Origin: Streptosporangium lutulentum
Lineage (GTDB): Bacteria; Actinomycetota; Actinomycetes; Streptosporangiales; Streptosporangiaceae
DNA length: 64,000 bases
Reading direction: 5' to 3'
Assembly (NCBI RefSeq): GCF_030811455.1
Contig: NZ_JAUSQU010000001.1
Location: forward strand, 2,542,001-2,606,000
Shown here: positions 37,327 to 47,592 of the stretch, in pieces
Numbering within the stretch: the first letter of the stretch is position 1
Layout of the letters: each line of letters starts with the position of its first letter
Made by a program: the position numbers and the translations under genes
The notes under the pieces: generated by a model
The model's input: only the letters and a program-made list of their open reading frames with translations
The model's database searches: none
What the model was told of the DNA's origin: nothing

Positions 37327-37674
37327 TCAGCCGGCAAGGATGGTGGCCAGATCGGGCGGTATCGGCATGGGCTCGGTCAGCCCGACGCGGGCGCGGCCGG
37401 TGTTGCCCTCGGGGTAGCGGCCCAATGCGGAGCCGGGCGCGGCCACGACGATTCGCACCACCTGGCCGAACGCCTCACGCCGGTCGCGCTGGGCTACGGC
37501 GAGGGCGAACATGGCGACGTGGTTGCGGGTGTGCGGCCAGGGCCAGGGCTGAGACAGGATGTGTGCCCGCTCCAGGTGCCGCCAGCGTGCCTGAGGGTCG
37601 GCGGTGACGCGGGCGGCGCGCATCTCAGCGTGGTAGGCGGACCGAACGGGGGTGGGCATCCGGCGGCGGGTCAT
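37327..37674 (-). CDS. DUF3703 family protein
   Basis: 115 residues with the DUF3703 signature HLERAHILSQPWPWPHTRNHVAMFALA and the ending GNTGRA...LTEPMPIPPDLATIL. Function unknown; in my recollection the family accompanies heavy-metal resistance genes, as here. ATG 37674 is supported by AAAGGA; its 5' end overlaps the 3' end of the cation transporter by 50 bases in another frame, so the two are coupled. Third gene of the ArsR/transporter/DUF3703 operon. Confidence 0.85.
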   Translation of the reverse strand: MTRRRMPTPVRSAYHAEMRAARVTADPQARWRHLERAHILSQPWPWPHTRNHVAMFALAVAQRDRREAFGQVVRIVVAAPGSALGRYPEGNTGRARVGLTEPMPIPPDLATILAG

Positions 37675-38380
37675 CGGGCATCCTTTCGGGCGGGCAGCAG
37701 GCGTCGGCGCACGCCGCGGAGGCCGAAACAGGAGTGCCGGCGGCGAGCGGGTTCGGGGCACAACAGGCGTCGCCGCGCCAGGCCTCGCGGCCTTCCTTGA
37801 CCGCGACCGCGGCGATGACCAGGGCGGCGATCGGGTCGGCCCAGGACCAGCCGAAGGCGCTGTTGAGCGCGAGGCCGACCAGCAGCACGGCCGACAGGTA
37901 GGTGCACAGCAGGGTTTGCTTGGAGTCGGCCACCGCGCTGGCGGAGCCGAGCTCGCGGCCCGCGCGCCGCTGTGCGTACGACAGGAACGGCATGATCAGC
38001 AAGGACAGTGCGGCCAGCACGAGTCCGGGGGTGGAGTGCTCGGCCTCACCGCTGCCGGTCAGGGCACGGACGGCGTCGACGGTGACGTAGGCGGCCAGCG
38101 CGAAGAACGAAATCGCGATGATCCGCAGTGCGGTCTTCTCCCGCTTTTCGTGATCGTTGCCGGAGAACTGCCAGGCCACCGCGGCGGCCGAGGCGACCTC
38201 CACGATGGAGTCCAGGCCGAAACCGATCAGCGCGGTCGAGGAGGCAAGGGTGCCGGCGGTGATGGCCACCGCCGCCTCGACCACGTTGTAGGTGATGGTC
38301 GCGGCCACCAGAAGCCGGATCCGGCGTCGCAGTGAGGCGCGTCGGGCGGGAGCCAGGTTCGGCAGGTTCAGCGCGGTCAC
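37625..38380 (-). CDS. Cation diffusion facilitator-type transporter with Cys-rich tail
   Basis: 251-residue efflux protein with about six membrane helices (ITYNVVEAAVAITAGTLASS, FGLDSIVEVASAAAVAW with the CDF-type D/E positions). The C-terminus contains two CC pairs (GDACCAPNP, CADACCPPE) suited to soft metals. Start is GTG at 38380, four bases overlapping the ArsR stop (GTGA), with AAGGAGA upstream. Cotranscribed with a CmtR-like sensor; cadmium or lead export is the likely role, by inference. Confidence 0.87.
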   Translation of the reverse strand: MTALNLPNLAPARRASLRRRIRLLVAATITYNVVEAAVAITAGTLASSTALIGFGLDSIVEVASAAAVAWQFSGNDHEKREKTALRIIAISFFALAAYVTVDAVRALTGSGEAEHSTPGLVLAALSLLIMPFLSYAQRRAGRELGSASAVADSKQTLLCTYLSAVLLVGLALNSAFGWSWADPIAALVIAAVAVKEGREAWRGDACCAPNPLAAGTPVSASAACADACCPPERMPDDPPPDAHPRSVRLPR

Positions 38381-38787
38381 GACACCGGTCTCCTTCCGGT
38401 CGCCGGCTCGAGGCTTTCCTCGCCGGCGTCGCTGCCGTAGGTGGGGCAGAGCGCGACCGCGTGACCGGTGGCGGCCAGCAGTTGCTCGGCGGAGGCCAGC
38501 AGATCCATCAGCTCGGGATGGGTCAGGGCGTAAAACGACTGGCGGCCCTCGGCGCGATAGTCGACCAGCCCGCAGTCACGCAGGCAGGCCAGATGCTTGG
38601 AGACGGTGGACTGGGCCAGGGCGAGCTCGCCGGTCAGATCCACCACCCGGGCCTCGCCGCGCGCCAGGCGCTGCACGATCCGCAGCCGGGTCTCGTCGGC
38701 CAATGAGTGAAACAGCGCGGCCGCCGGGGTGATGCCCGCGGCGATCTCGGCGCTCACACACCGACCACCCTCACTATCAATCGTCAT
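38377..38787 (-). CDS. ArsR/SmtB metal sensor, CmtR-like
   Basis: 136-residue winged-helix repressor (FHSLADETRLRIVQRLARGEARVVDLTG, ALAQSTVSKHLACLRDCGLV in parts). Cys68 and Cys72 form the C-x3-C pair in the recognition helix (LACLRDCG), and Cys114 lies in the C-terminal stretch (ALCPTYG). This triad matches the Cd(II)/Pb(II) site of mycobacterial CmtR. Metal binding would release DNA and induce the operon with the transporter and DUF3703. ATG 38787. Confidence 0.88.
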   Translation of the reverse strand: MTIDSEGGRCVSAEIAAGITPAAALFHSLADETRLRIVQRLARGEARVVDLTGELALAQSTVSKHLACLRDCGLVDYRAEGRQSFYALTHPELMDLLASAEQLLAATGHAVALCPTYGSDAGEESLEPATGRRPVS

Positions 38788-41717: not shown

Positions 41718-42108
41718 GGCCGTCCATCGGCAATCAGTGAGCAGGCGCGTGCGCGCATCTGCCTGATCTCCCGGACGGTCCCTGCCGAGTGGGGCATCAC
41801 CGGCCACTCCACTTGGAGCCTGCGCACTCTGGCCGAGCACCTCATCGCCCGGGGCGTGGTCACCTCGATCAGCCGCCGGCACCTGTCGCGGATCCTGCGC
41901 GCAGGCAAGGTGACCTGGCAGAGCACCACCACCTCGAAGGCCTCCAACGACCCGCAGTTCATTCGCCAAGATGCAGCAGAACGCGGCAATCGGTGCCTAC
42001 ATCCGGTGGCGCAACGCCCGCGCGCAACCGAAGACCAGCTTCGCCGCCAGCTCAACCATCCGAAGCTGGACCAACCAATTACCCGGCCAAGGTTGCGTGA
42101 CAGGCCAC
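41718..42108 (+). mobile_element. IS630-type element, copy B, internally deleted
   Basis: Roughly 390 bp closely related to copy A: the segment coding for RICLISRTVPAEWGITGH, then a jump from GCCAAGATGCAG to CAGAACGCGG that removes about 470 bp including the catalytic domain, then the shared right end. It also has one extra T in the TTCATTCGCC segment. The left end is missing. Upstream, 41590-41690 carries an HTH-like fragment (RLIGKAMGVTGQAIGKWA) of unknown origin, and a short GCCGAG tandem repeat. Confidence 0.75.
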
Positions 42109-42166
42109 TCGCCCGCCAGATCGCCCTCGACGCCGACGCCTGGACCTCTGAGCCGGCCGCCGTGAT

Positions 42167-42372
42167 GACGACCCTGTTCGATCAGCTGGCACCGACCTGG
42201 GATGCCGAGCACGCCACCAACCGCCTGGACGCCCTGACTGATGCACTGGAGCGCGGCGGTACCCTGCCCACCGGGATCTGTCTGGAGGTCGGGTCCGGCA
42301 CCGGCCGGCACACTGCTGCCCTGGCCGGTGCGTTCGAGAAGGTGATCGCCATTGATCTGGCCTGGCAAATGG
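42167..42372 (+). pseudogene. Class I SAM methyltransferase fragment
   Basis: About 69 residues (MTTLFDQLAPTWDAEHAT, then motif I in CLEVGSGTGRHTAAL and IDL). The frame continues to 42506 but family resemblance stops near 42372, so the 3' half is lost. The 5' side abuts the IS630 right end. The following 42373-42569 has no recognisable gene but contains the 14-bp palindrome GCGGAACGTTCCGC at 42407-42420. Confidence 0.6.
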
Positions 42373-42569
42373 CGTCGAAGCAAGCCGTCATGAGCTCCGT
42401 GTCCCTGCGGAACGTTCCGCGTATCGTCGCAGGGCGAGGTGGGTCGACTGTCGTCGGCGTGGTCGTCGGGCGGGTCGGCAACCGCGCTCCCGGCGGAACC
42501 TTCTGACGGTTCGCTCTGAGGCGAGCTTCGCGCCGGCGGTGCAGGGCGGCCCCCACGACCGCCAGGGAG

Positions 42570-43778
42570 TCACCGGGCAACGGAGTTGAGCAGATGGCGG
42601 CGTTGCTGCTCGGTCAACTCGCCGATGCGGCGGCCGGCGTCGATCCCGCCCGCCGCCAGCAGGTTGGCGATCTCAGCGGCGCCGTGGCCGGGCAGGGCGC
42701 GCAGCAGCCACCCGATTCGGGCGTTTTTCGTGGTGGCGTCGGTGCGGGCCAACACCTCGGCCACGCTCATCCGGCCGGCGGCCACCGCCGCGCGCAGCTG
42801 GGCCCGGGTCAGTGGGGCCTGCACCGAGGCCTGCGCTGAGATCCGCGCCTGCGGGGCCGCCGGCCGGAGAAGGGGTACGGCGGCGGGCGCGGCAGGTACC
42901 GCCCGGTCGGCGGCATGGTGCGTCCGTTCGGTTCGCGGGTGCTCTTCACCCAGCGCGCCGTGCGTGGTGACCAGGAGAACTCCCGCGACGGCGGCAACGC
43001 ATGCGGCGACGGTCAGCTGGCGTTTGGACAGCCGACCACCGGGTTGACTGGCGGCGGCGAGCCTGAGACCGACGACCGCGGTGCGCAGCAGCACACCGGT
43101 GACCAGGCCGAGCAGGATCGGCACGATCTGATCAGGCAACGGAGCGATGGTGGCGATCAGAACGCCGGCGGCCGGACTCACGCAGGAGACCACCAGCCAC
43201 GGAGCCAGACGTTGCTTGGCCATGTCCAGCAGCGCGGCCAGGGCCAGCCCTTCGCCGGCCGAGTGGACCATGAGGGCGATGACGACCACGACGGAGGCGG
43301 TCAGCGCCAGGGTCGCGCCCTCGATCGCCCGGTGCAGGGTGAGGGCGGCCGCGGTGCCCATGCCGCCGAACAGAGCGGCATCGACGACTTCCCTGACGCG
43401 GCGGTGCAGGCCGGGCGCATGCCGGCCGCCGGCCGGCTTGGATCCCTCCTGTCCATGTCCATGCCCGCAGCCTTTGCGGGTGAAGTAAGTGATCACAAGG
43501 AAGCCGAATGCGATGGCCAGCCCGACACCCCACAGGGGCACCCCTGTTTCGGCCGCGTCTCGCCAGGCGTCGGGCAGCAGGTCGGCCAGGGCGGTGATCA
43601 GCATCATCGCCGAGGCGATCGCCAGCCACATCGTCACCCTGGTGGAGTTGCGCCGGGCCAGCCACGCCCCGGCGAGCGTGGACAGCGACACCAGGAGCAC
43701 CGCGACCCAGGCGCCGGCGCCTGGGGAGGCTCCCTCCAATGCCGGCCCCAGCATCTGCGTTCCAGTGGCTGGCAGCAT
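42570..43778 (-). CDS. ZIP-family metal transporter with C-terminal mIHF-like domain
   Basis: 402 residues. Residues 1-275 form an eight-helix ZIP permease for zinc or another divalent metal, with the metal motifs HRAIEG (149-154, TM4) and HSAGEG (172-177, TM5) and a His-rich loop CGHGHG at 104-109. After a Pro/Ala linker, residues 322-400 resemble actinobacterial integration host factor: LTRAQLRAAVAAGRMSVAEVL, then RIGWLLRALPGHGAAEIANL and IDAGRRIGELTEQQRRHLL, matching the H2TH pattern of mIHF (ALLEALPGVGK, RRVRGLGANQR). AGGTGG precedes ATG 43778. The fusion is unexpected, since ZIP C-termini are normally outside the cytoplasm. Confidence 0.82.
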   Translation of the reverse strand: MLPATGTQMLGPALEGASPGAGAWVAVLLVSLSTLAGAWLARRNSTRVTMWLAIASAMMLITALADLLPDAWRDAAETGVPLWGVGLAIAFGFLVITYFTRKGCGHGHGQEGSKPAGGRHAPGLHRRVREVVDAALFGGMGTAAALTLHRAIEGATLALTASVVVVIALMVHSAGEGLALAALLDMAKQRLAPWLVVSCVSPAAGVLIATIAPLPDQIVPILLGLVTGVLLRTAVVGLRLAAASQPGGRLSKRQLTVAACVAAVAGVLLVTTHGALGEEHPRTERTHHAADRAVPAAPAAVPLLRPAAPQARISAQASVQAPLTRAQLRAAVAAGRMSVAEVLARTDATTKNARIGWLLRALPGHGAAEIANLLAAGGIDAGRRIGELTEQQRRHLLNSVAR

Positions 43779-44567: not shown

Positions 44568-44709
44568 GACCTTTCACTGAACCTTTCACCATGATTTCCC
44601 GGGGCATGGCCGAGACTCGCAAAAACAGAAATCGGCGTCGCCTGACCGTCGCGTCCGGTGTGCTGAACGAAGGGAAAACACGGTCTTCGTGATTTTGGAT
44701 TCGAATGTC

Positions 44710-44751
44710 GGCCGCTGCTTCCGAGTTCGTCACACCTGCGAAGCAGCGGCC
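44710..44751. terminator. Perfect 12-bp stem terminator
   Basis: GGCCGCTGCTTC (44710-44721) pairs with GAAGCAGCGGCC (44740-44751); the plus side continues TTTATCCTTT. It lies 105 bases past the end of the small acidic gene on the minus strand and could work in both directions. Confidence 0.65.
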
Positions 44752-44856
44752 TTTATCCTTTGTCGGACGCACGCTTTCCGTTGCCTGCTCGCTCGCCTTC
44801 CGCACTCGTTGATCAGGGGGCCGGCGATGCTTGAAAGCGTGGCGGGGGCGGTGGTT

Positions 44857-44997
44857 CTAGGCGGCGGTGGGCGGGTCTTCCTCGCTGGTCTCGCGGGTAC
44901 TGTCCGGCTGGGTCTCCTCGTGCGCGTGATCTGCGCAGTGGTCGTCGGCAGGGGTGCTTTCCTCACGCGGAGAACGCTGGTGGCCGATGTGTTCCAT
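44857..44997 (-). CDS. Small acidic, His-rich protein
   Basis: A 46-codon gene starting MEHIGHQRSP, with a perfect GGAGG five bases before the ATG. It is rich in Asp/Glu and His with one Cys (core DDHCADHAHEE) and ends DPPTAA. No hydrophobic segment, so it is soluble and possibly unstructured. The composition suggests metal binding; neighbours include a ZIP transporter and a zinc CDF exporter. Family unknown. Support rests on the RBS, the terminator and the biased composition. Confidence 0.5.
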   Translation of the reverse strand: MEHIGHQRSPREESTPADDHCADHAHEETQPDSTRETSEEDPPTAA

Positions 44998-45289
44998 GAC
45001 AACCTCCGATTGATTCATATCCGGTGGTGGTACGGTTTTTGCATCCTGGTTGCCGGTCGGGAAACATGGCGACCCTCAAAGGGCGGTTAATCCGGCGGCT
45101 TATGCGAGGCCGATGGTTTTCACGTGGGATTTTTCAGCACAATTGACAGCTGGATGGACCTTCTCCGGGTGGATGGAAGTTTTGTTGAGCTGCCAGGCCA
45201 TGCGGCACGCCATGCGACCGGCTCAGCGCAGGTGGTCCAGCCGTGCGATGTCAGGTGGATGCGGGATGGTGCGGGTGGTACGGGCGCCG

Positions 45290-45463
45290 TCACGACCGGC
45301 AGGTTCCTTGGGCTCCGCCCAGGTGGGTGGAGGTTCGGCCGGCGCGGACGACGGTCGGGTCCGGCGTGGCGTCGCGCATCGGCGCCGAACACCGTGCCAC
45401 TGCCGCGACGGCGGGCAGGCGGATGATCTCGGCCAGTGTGAGAACCGTCAGCAACACGATCAT
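45290..45463 (-). CDS. Small single-pass or secreted peptide
   Basis: 57 codons. ATG 45463 follows GAGGAGAGG closely. The N-terminus is hydrophobic (MIVLLTVLTLAEII) and the rest is polar with two cysteines. It could be a short membrane peptide or a secreted one. I do not recognise it, and base composition alone cannot exclude chance. Confidence 0.35.
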   Translation of the reverse strand: MIVLLTVLTLAEIIRLPAVAAVARCSAPMRDATPDPTVVRAGRTSTHLGGAQGTCRS

Positions 45464-45579
45464 CAGCGCCTCTCCTCGCAGGATGCGGGGCGCACCGTGC
45501 GTCCGGGACGTGCCGTCCCCAGCTGATGGGCGTCGCCGGGGGCGAAGGATGGAAGTCATGGCGTCTGCACCTGCTTCCG

Positions 45580-45918
45580 CTACTTGGTGATCTTGCGCAG
45601 GTAGTGCGCCGAGGCCCAGTCGTGTTTGTCGTCGGCGGCCTTGACCTTGATCCAGCCTTTAATCGGCGCGCGGGCGCGGGGGAGTCGGCCGTCGGCCACC
45701 CGCAGCCTGCCGATCTGGCGAAAACGCAGCCCGGCGCCGGATCGGACGTTGAGGAAGCCGGCGCGCCTCGCGTGAGTGAGCCGGTAGGCGCAGGTCGGTG
45801 CCGGCCGGCCGTCCAGGGTGACAGGACGAGTGGTCGCGTGGGCGGGCAGGGCGGTCAGGATGGGCCCGCTCGCGATGACACACGCGGTGACAGGGGTGGT
45901 GGTCTGCTTCGCGATCAT
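45580..45918 (-). CDS. Secreted SH3-like domain protein
   Basis: 112 residues: a signal peptide-like N-terminus (VTACVIASGPILTALPAHA) and a bacterial SH3 (SH3b) fold (LNVRSGAGLRFRQIG, GWIKVKAADDKHDWASAHYLRKI in order). Such domains bind cell-wall peptides. GGGAG precedes ATG 45918. It has no catalytic domain. An NlpC/P60 wall hydrolase lies two kilobases away on the same strand. Confidence 0.75.
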   Translation of the reverse strand: MIAKQTTTPVTACVIASGPILTALPAHATTRPVTLDGRPAPTCAYRLTHARRAGFLNVRSGAGLRFRQIGRLRVADGRLPRARAPIKGWIKVKAADDKHDWASAHYLRKITK

Positions 45919-46109: not shown

Positions 46110-46565
46110 GTGACCCCCCGAGCCACGGAGTGTGCACCCGCACCCCTGAACGGTCACTTACCTACGGGGGTGGCTGCCCGTCCCGATGACTGCTTCCCCT
46201 CGGCCATGGACGCCGAACGGGTGCAGAGCGTCCGCCGGGCACTACCGACCAAACAAACGGTGCACGAGCTCGCGCAGGTCTTCGCGCTGCTGGCCGATCC
46301 CGGAAGGCTGCGGCTGACGGCCGCCCTGCTGCACGCGGAGGAGATGTGTGTACGCGACCTGGCCGCGGCCACCGGCCAAAGCACCTCGGCCACCTCACAC
46401 GCGCTGCGACTGCTGCGCCTGCACCACGTGGTCCAGGTCCGCCGGACCGGGCGACTGGCGCACTACCGGCTGGCCGACTCCCACATGCGGATGCTGTTCG
46501 ACCTGGCGATCACTCACATCGGGCATGTCACCGACCCTCGTCGAGGAGAGCGAAACGATGGCTGA
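46110..46565 (+). CDS. ArsR/SmtB zinc-type metal sensor
   Basis: 151 residues. Winged helix (FALLADPGRLRLTAALLHAEEMCVRDLA in parts; SATSHALRLLRLHHVV). The C-terminal helix carries D123, H125, H136 and H139 (DSH, ten residues, HIGH), the alpha-5 site of SmtB/CzrA-type zinc sensors. Start GTG 46110 with AGGAGAAGAGG upstream. It overlaps the CDF transporter start by eight bases, so metal sensing and export are coupled. Confidence 0.9.
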   Translation: MTPRATECAPAPLNGHLPTGVAARPDDCFPSAMDAERVQSVRRALPTKQTVHELAQVFALLADPGRLRLTAALLHAEEMCVRDLAAATGQSTSATSHALRLLRLHHVVQVRRTGRLAHYRLADSHMRMLFDLAITHIGHVTDPRRGERNDG

Positions 46566-47592
46566 GCACGGACACGGGCACGGGCACGGGGTGAGCGCCG
46601 AGGCCGACCGCCGCTACCTCACCGGAGCACTGGCGCTGATCGTCGGATTCATGGCCGTCGAGGTCGTCATCGGTTTCCTCGCCCAGTCTCTGGCGCTGAT
46701 CTCCGACGCCGGGCACATGCTCACCGACGCCATCGCCATCGTCTTCGCGTTGATCGCCATGCGCATCGCCGCCCGGCCGCCACAGGGCGGTTTCACCTAC
46801 GGGCTCAAACGTGCTGAGATCATCTCCGCGCAGATCAACGGCATCACCCTGCTGCTGCTCAGTGCTTACTTCATCGTCGAGGGCATCCGCCGCCTGATCG
46901 TGCCTTCCGAGGTGGAAGGCCTGTATGTGGTGGTGACCGGCCTGGCCGGAATCGTCGTCAACCTGGCCGCCACCTGGCTGCTGTCTCGGGCCAATCGCTC
47001 CAGCCTCAACGTCGAAGGCGCCTACCAGCACATCCTCAACGACCTGTTCGCCTTCATCGCCACCACGATCGCCGGAGCCGTCATCTGGCTCACCGGCTGG
47101 GGCAGGGCCGACGCGATCGCCGCCCTCGTCGTCGCCGCGTTGATGCTCAAGGCCGGCTGGGGACTGGTCCGCGACGCGGGCCGGGTCTTCATGGAGGCCG
47201 CTCCCGTGGGCATGAACCCCGCCGAGATCGGCGCCAGGACCGCCGCTCTGGAGCACGTCGTCGAGGTGCACGACCTGCACATCTGGGAGGTCACCTCCGG
47301 CTACGCCGCGCTGTCGGCGCACGTCCTGGTCACCCCCGGCGCCGACTGCCACGCGATACGCCTGGCCGCCGAGCGGATGTTCCACGACACCTACGGCATC
47401 GGGCACACCACCTTGCAGGTCGACCACACCTCCTCGGAGGCGCTCACCATCGACGGCGCGGACGCCCATTGCCGCGACCCGCACGGCCCCACCCACCACG
47501 GCGGCGCCACCACTTCCGCCGGCCCGTTGGCCGGCCACGCCGATCATGAGGAGCCGGGTGATACGGCCCATCCGCCACAAGATCCGGCGTAG
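46558..47592 (+). CDS. CDF family zinc exporter (CzcD/ZitB-like)
   Basis: 344 residues. His-rich N-terminus (MAEHGHGHGHG), six membrane helices with the CDF metal site SDAGHMLTDA in TM2 and HILNDLFAF in TM5, and a C-terminal cytoplasmic domain (HDLHIWEVTSGYAALSAHV), plus a His-rich tail (THHGG, HADHEE). Exports Zn(II) and related ions by proton antiport. Cotranscribed with its ArsR sensor. Confidence 0.94.
   Translation: MAEHGHGHGHGVSAEADRRYLTGALALIVGFMAVEVVIGFLAQSLALISDAGHMLTDAIAIVFALIAMRIAARPPQGGFTYGLKRAEIISAQINGITLLLLSAYFIVEGIRRLIVPSEVEGLYVVVTGLAGIVVNLAATWLLSRANRSSLNVEGAYQHILNDLFAFIATTIAGAVIWLTGWGRADAIAALVVAALMLKAGWGLVRDAGRVFMEAAPVGMNPAEIGARTAALEHVVEVHDLHIWEVTSGYAALSAHVLVTPGADCHAIRLAAERMFHDTYGIGHTTLQVDHTSSEALTIDGADAHCRDPHGPTHHGGATTSAGPLAGHADHEEPGDTAHPPQDPA

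Follow-up and report, generated by a model that had tools for sequence, protein, structure and literature searches.

The transporters closest to the protein reported here are of two kinds. From the ZIP transporters of the BbZIP and ZupT type it differs in having a predicted external C-terminal H2TH domain, and its family differs from them in an arginine at residue 150. With the LIV-1 ZIPs that carry an N-terminal ectodomain, such as ZIP4, it shares the combination of a ZIP core and a folded external domain, as described for LIV-1 in a section of PMC6189677, but here the domain is C-terminal, has a different fold and is bacterial. The domain itself is related in fold (H2TH) and in sequence to the actinobacterial integration host factors (IHFs) mIHF and sIHF. 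Unlike these it is fused, is predicted to lie outside the cell, falls under the NCBIfam cut-off and has drifted at its basic positions; ahead of the H2TH part, in a region where basic residues occur in free IHFs, the fusion has a Pro-rich disordered linker. The neighbouring gene belongs with DivIVA and Wag31 of actinomycetes, sharing the DivIVA domain above its cut-off, but it lies far under the cut-off for the Wag31 equivalog and is paired with a transporter gene. DivIVA coordinates polar growth in actinomycetes, according to part of PMC12585849.

The fusion lies in a 64,000-nucleotide stretch of the Streptosporangium lutulentum genome (the window). The reading that we favour, at somewhat under an even chance, is of a predicted ZIP importer whose outside H2TH domain has been reused for docking rather than for DNA packing, and which is placed by DivIVA.

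A ZIP permease and an IHF-type domain in one open frame

A sequence-only reading of the window had claimed that a single frame unites a ZIP permease with an mIHF-like H2TH tail, and we confirm the frame and the identity of both domains (Table 1). The fusion protein scored 35.4 bits with the ZIP profile PF02535 (cut-off 35.1), and its core has the eight-helix ZIP fold, with an inner loop near residues 104–125 that contains histidine. The profile for actinobacterial IHF, NF041260, gave 47.2 bits (E 2.4e-12) against a cut-off of 60; judged by these scores, the tail is akin to actinobacterial IHF, yet is not a filed member of NF041260. Searching sequences of the PDB with the tail alone produced a weak match (mIHF, E 0.026), and a fold search identified the IHF-type H2TH fold more clearly. 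In the structure model the tail is a confidently folded domain, whereas the linker has pLDDT values below 50 at residues 279–301 and 303–317. Over 62 members, the stretch 274–320 averages 55% Pro, Ala, Ser or Thr.

Table 1. Features of the fusion gene and its neighbourhood (positions within the window)
Feature	Position	Strand	Remarks
ZIP permease with C-terminal IHF-type H2TH domain, 402 aa	42570..43778	−	One open frame
ZIP core, aa 1–277	42948..43778	−	Eight-helix; HRAIEG at 149–154, HSAGEG at 172–177
Linker, aa 278–320	42819..42947	−	Pro/Ala-rich; predicted flexible and outside
IHF-type H2TH domain, aa 321–402	42573..42818	−	
DivIVA-domain protein, 242 aa	43839..44567	−	PF05103, TIGR03544; upstream, 60 nt before the ZIP start
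Small protein, SH3_3-like domain	45580..45918	−	PF08239 22.6 bits, under cut-off 27; putative export signal (by eye)
Cation diffusion facilitator (CDF) exporter	46348..47592	+	PF01545 130.9 bits, PF16916 42.8 bits; called start perhaps too far upstream
ArsR-family regulator	38377..38787	−	PF01022 55.3 bits; cluster c8
Second Cation_efflux-family protein	37625..38380	−	PF01545 51.2 bits; cluster c10; 4-nt overlap with the ArsR gene

A folded domain on a flexible linker would also suit release of the tail, by proteolysis or internal initiation, to act as a free IHF-like protein. However, free IHF genes are present anyway, and position 337, which is Met in the window copy, is Met in 31% of tails and Leu in 51%. 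Internal initiation was rejected because no start codon is conserved across the tails, and we regard release in either form as most improbable.

The fusion recurs within one family

A phmmer search gave 200 homologues and, among the 120 listed, at least 91 carry the tail. For the genomic loci, we collected long tail-matching frames from 297 genomes of the order, which left out G070, G119 and G216 (360–361 aa) and some frames of 168–206 aa. ZIP and tail share one frame in 47 of the 50 long-frame loci (L101–L150), a number that is a lower bound because it is drawn from the matches listed; these loci come from 30 genomes including the own genome, with 10 genus codes in one family. By these counts the tail differs from IHF, a small free-standing protein, in being fused. 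Two weaknesses that the sequence-only reading had foreseen, a tail with no H2TH match and a separate gene joined to the permease by sequencing error, can be set aside: the H2TH/IHF relation was found, and recurrence of the frame in homologues rules out sequencing or assembly error as its source. The homologues of the same architecture that it had proposed to look for are many, which makes the fusion an established architecture in this actinomycete group.

The own genome has a second fusion copy with 78% identity (L113), found by protein search; a Pfam search of the same genome had just one ZIP among the matches listed. Across 246 genomes of the class (E up to 1e-10), the ZIP core was found in one, the own genome, so that either the ZIP subfamily is patchy or the class sample missed members. 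No second host protein for the tail was found among the fetched loci. Of the three long-frame loci without a ZIP fusion, L144 and L145 are free IHF genes whose upstream sequence is open, and L126 is a stranded tail; among shorter frames, L152–L157 are free IHF genes and L151 has a mere ZIP fragment before the tail. A plasmid search returned 10 records, with the matches under mihF genes or in unannotated stretches.

Databases contain many members of the fusion family, and UniRef names one of them (P0116) after the H2TH domain. If the tail does lie outside, the fusion would be the first ZIP known to us with a C-terminal ectodomain. In the open-licence literature no paper brought together any two of ZIP transporter, integration host factor and H2TH, and among the papers listed by broader searches none dealt with the layout; the available sections of a ZIP phylogeny paper (PMC5751234) contain nothing on it.

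Several variants of the layout were seen. The stranded tail of L126 (4953-6257, minus strand; G001:C16), from a genome of the same genus, has no intact ZIP frame and adjoins out-of-frame sequence that by eye resembles a short-chain dehydrogenase; it is likely to be a relic of rearrangement. Several relatives aside from the tail-bearing set (P0070, P0089, P0092-P0094, P0097, P0100-P0102, P0104, P0106, P0109 and P0111) combine the same ZIP core with other long C-terminal extensions that have no IHF domain, many with Cys close to the end; P0089 is source-named Actinoallomurus. Two further Actinoallomurus proteins are P0029, with the IHF domain plus a further extension, and P0091, with similarity to the ZIP core together with a precomputed Cation_efflux match (PF01545), which may be a ZIP–exporter fusion or a frameshift artefact. 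Very long linkers occur in P0064, P0078, P0116 and L110, where the tail starts at residue 472–492 (488 in L110).

Putative metal site and predicted orientation of the ZIP core

We take H149, E153, H172 and E176, in TM4 and TM5, to be the metal ligands of the ZIP core. In 62 aligned members, H149 and E153 are present in every one, and H172 and E176 in 61. Residue 150 is Arg in 62 of 62; in BbZIP the equivalent position is presumably Asn, within the second metal site, and the invariant arginine suggests a one-metal site.

For topology we aligned 62 of the 91 proteins that carry the tail and took the loops from the model. Lys and Arg together averaged 15.9 in the inner loops and 1.5 in the outer loops, with the inner count higher in all 62. 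This excess predicts the N-out/C-out orientation that is the norm for ZIPs, and so places the tail and linker outside. According to PMC6189677, ZIP termini are not on the cytoplasmic side, in contrast to those of ZnTs. The paradox of a DNA-binding type of tail on a ZIP C-terminus had been correctly raised in the sequence-only reading, which offered three ways out: inverted topology, a use other than DNA binding, or binding of DNA or RNA outside. The second fits best, and the loop charges of all 62 aligned members speak against the first.

A DivIVA-domain partner gene

The gene upstream of the fusion encodes a protein that scored 42.1 bits with PF05103 (cut-off 28) and 40 bits with TIGR03544 (cut-off 22), but 50.8 of the 260 bits needed for the Wag31 equivalog. 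Of the 47 tail loci, 37 have a DivIVA frame close to the ZIP, as does the window; in 36 of these 37 the two domains are no more than 720 nt apart. The two are on the same strand in 37/37, with DivIVA upstream in 23 (one of them 2.6 kb away) and downstream in 14. All three tail-less ZIP loci also have a DivIVA frame, and none of the ten fetched loci without an intact ZIP frame has one. In the other 10 of the 47 tail loci, L113 included, there is no DivIVA within about 5 kb on either side. The own genome has only five DivIVA matches in 10.6 Mb, counting that of the window, so chance adjacency with the ZIP gene is remote.

At least three histidines are found at the N-terminus of the DivIVA partner in 23 of 35 parsed rows, compared with 100 of 561 called genes; six rows were unparsed, some of the scored segments begin before the likely start, and the count was 14/18 in an earlier parse of narrower scope. 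The partner in the window is itself His-poor, with two histidines before the domain. A promoter and terminator scan, which has little power here, gave no more matches than shuffled sequence and none on the minus strand, hence nothing resembling a terminator between the DivIVA gene and the ZIP gene. For DivIVA with a zinc transporter, the open-licence literature returned one paper, a staphylococcal blood-fitness screen.

Since tail-less ZIPs are still paired with DivIVA in three loci, the tail is dispensable to the pair. This bears on the idea that the tail regulates its own transporter from outside the cytoplasm, acting as a dimer contact or gate with no outside partner, much as the N-terminal ectodomain of LIV-1 ZIPs supports transport. 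Such a role would agree with a tail that is predicted to lie outside and is bound to one ZIP subfamily (47/50 long frames), and LIV-1 ZIPs do bear an external domain (PMC6189677, in part). Yet members without a tail, whose transport is not established, keep the same gene pair, and some 40 aa of linker, predicted to be disordered, part the tail from the membrane. We consider self-regulation unlikely.

Residues and charge of the tail

Columns were compared between 139 tails, 28 canonical IHFs and 33 members of a second free IHF type (IHF2). All are distinct strings and some are redundant: one protein can enter twice with different ends (P0001, L001), and the IHF2 set includes the stranded tail from L126. 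IHF2 is a paralogue of about 105–120 aa that many genomes have in addition to canonical IHF; often its hairpin is GYGPAK-like and RRVGGLG replaces RRVRGLG (examples are L144, L145, L152–L157 and G000:C1:1486365-1486661).

The structural core is kept in the tails, with G335 in 94%, D347 in 92%, P363 in 94%, L388 in 97%, R393 in 98% and L396 in 99%. Nine positions (322, 325, 333, 352, 354, 369, 383, 384 and 393) have a basic residue in 93% or more of each free set; in the same order, they are basic in 4, 59, 18, 36, 17, 23, 39, 29 and 98% of tails, so that R393 alone is held and the other eight have drifted family-wide. By alignment, positions 383, 384 and 386 correspond to R170, R171 and R173 of mIHF, which we take to be its DNA-contact residues, and residue 386 is basic in 0% of tails. 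The hairpin residue G366 is kept in just 16% of tails. An acidic residue occupies position 387 in 91% of tails compared with 0–3% of free IHFs, and residue 331 is Ala in 90% of tails compared with K/R in 100% of canonical IHFs. The mean net charge is 6.9 and 6.5 in the free sets and 3.1 in the tails. The window copy is among the less eroded: it retains R325, R354, R383, R384 and R393 (5/9) and has a tail net charge of about +5, so this copy may bind DNA or another polyanion.

An outside tail that acts as a metal or wall anchor by binding polyanions (teichoic acids or extracellular DNA) would agree with the IHF fold, with the positive mean charge and with the charge and retained R383 and R384 of the window copy. 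Against this stand the drift at eight of nine basic positions, the loss of G366 from most tails and the new acidic residue 387, and we judge polyanion binding to be quite unlikely.

The same drift counts against the proposal of the sequence-only reading, a metal-sensing, membrane-tethered nucleoid protein. In that case a cytoplasmic tail would link the chromosome to metal status. IHF homology is in its favour, a DivIVA pair would suit a polar chromosome anchor, and chromosomes are anchored at the tips in Streptomyces (part of PMC5157956). However, the tether needs the inverted topology that the loop charges of 62/62 members oppose, as does the general placing of ZIP termini away from the cytoplasm (PMC6189677, in part). 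The proposal is unsupported, and we hold it to be very improbable, although the basic positions have drifted less in the window copy. Taken as a whole, the earlier interpretation is partly supported.

Origin and constraint of the tail

Canonical IHF is present in 149/150 family genomes. The tail tree (83 columns) had 85 rows: 41 tails (40 of the 139 strings plus one stranded), 32 IHF2 and 12 of the 28 canonical IHFs. The tails fall on one side of a branch with an SH-aLRT of 94 when L081, the stranded tail of L126, is counted as a tail. L081 was first labelled free, there being no ZIP in its frame, and was relabelled after inspection of the tree; before relabelling, monophyly of the 40 sampled tails had been rejected by an AU test (p 0.005). 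On the relabelled tree the sampled tails form one clade, the earlier AU result being contrary. On the ZIP-core tree (156 rows) the tail state changes 13 times, a number that overstates losses because truncated sequences and the frameshifted-looking P0017 were scored as having no tail. A single gain with several losses would be the simplest reading.

In all six pairs among four close copies, dN/dS was 0.49–0.80 for the tail, 0.19–0.48 for the ZIP core and 0.35–1.17 for the linker. By these ratios the ZIP core changes more slowly than the tail, which is constrained, if weakly. The repeated absence of the tail across those 13 changes, and a dN/dS as high as 0.80, would fit a near-neutral ornament that has no function in itself. 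The conservation of the six core residues at 92–99% and the tail-specific acidic residue 387 argue against this, and we think it improbable.

A proposed docking role for the tail

The docking reading favoured above draws on the fusion and its recurrence, the single tail clade, the loop charges, the drift of basic positions, the weak constraint on the tail, the DivIVA pair and the metal-gene neighbourhood. In a fuller form, which we put forward as doubtful, a nucleoid fold was captured once and turned outward as a docking domain, and the importer sits at hyphal tips through a dedicated, often His-bearing DivIVA scaffold, making a two-sided polar metal-uptake station. In the favoured reading itself, the ZIP would import metal. 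The DivIVA partner, at the inner face, would gather the transporter where the membrane is negatively curved (at a hyphal tip, a branch or a septum), and partners with a His-rich N-terminus may take metal from the His loop of the transporter. Outside, the tail would fix the transporter to a putative wall or exported partner, and import would be placed where new wall is made.

Counting against docking are the 13 tail-state changes together with the tail-less DivIVA pairs, and also the residual basic character of the window copy and the faster evolution of the tail. The absence of DivIVA near 10 of 47 tail loci and the His-poor partner in the window weigh against the wider explanation. Should it prove true, it would show clearly how a chromatin-protein fold can be recruited to the outer side of a membrane, and the DivIVA pair would give a hint of spatially placed metal import in filamentous actinomycetes.

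Neighbouring genes

Neither the DivIVA gene pair nor the metal-gene neighbourhood had figured in the sequence-only reading. Neighbours were clustered, with Pfam run on representatives. The CDF exporter cluster, of which the window gene is a member, occurs in 27/54 loci. One ArsR-type cluster is found in 17/54; the ArsR gene in the window is not of that cluster, and its own cluster and that of the second cation-efflux gene occur in 6/54 loci each. The small SH3-like protein is, as a guess, a candidate outside partner of the tail; its cluster is present in only 10/54 loci, which counts against the docking reading.

The stretch of roughly 1 kb on the upstream side of the DivIVA gene (44568-45579) is without a gene call from the GC3-based caller. 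At 41856-42506 (plus strand) there is a weak, partial methyltransferase match (PF13649, 21.7 bits, under the cut-off) confined to residues 143–174, possibly from a truncated gene.
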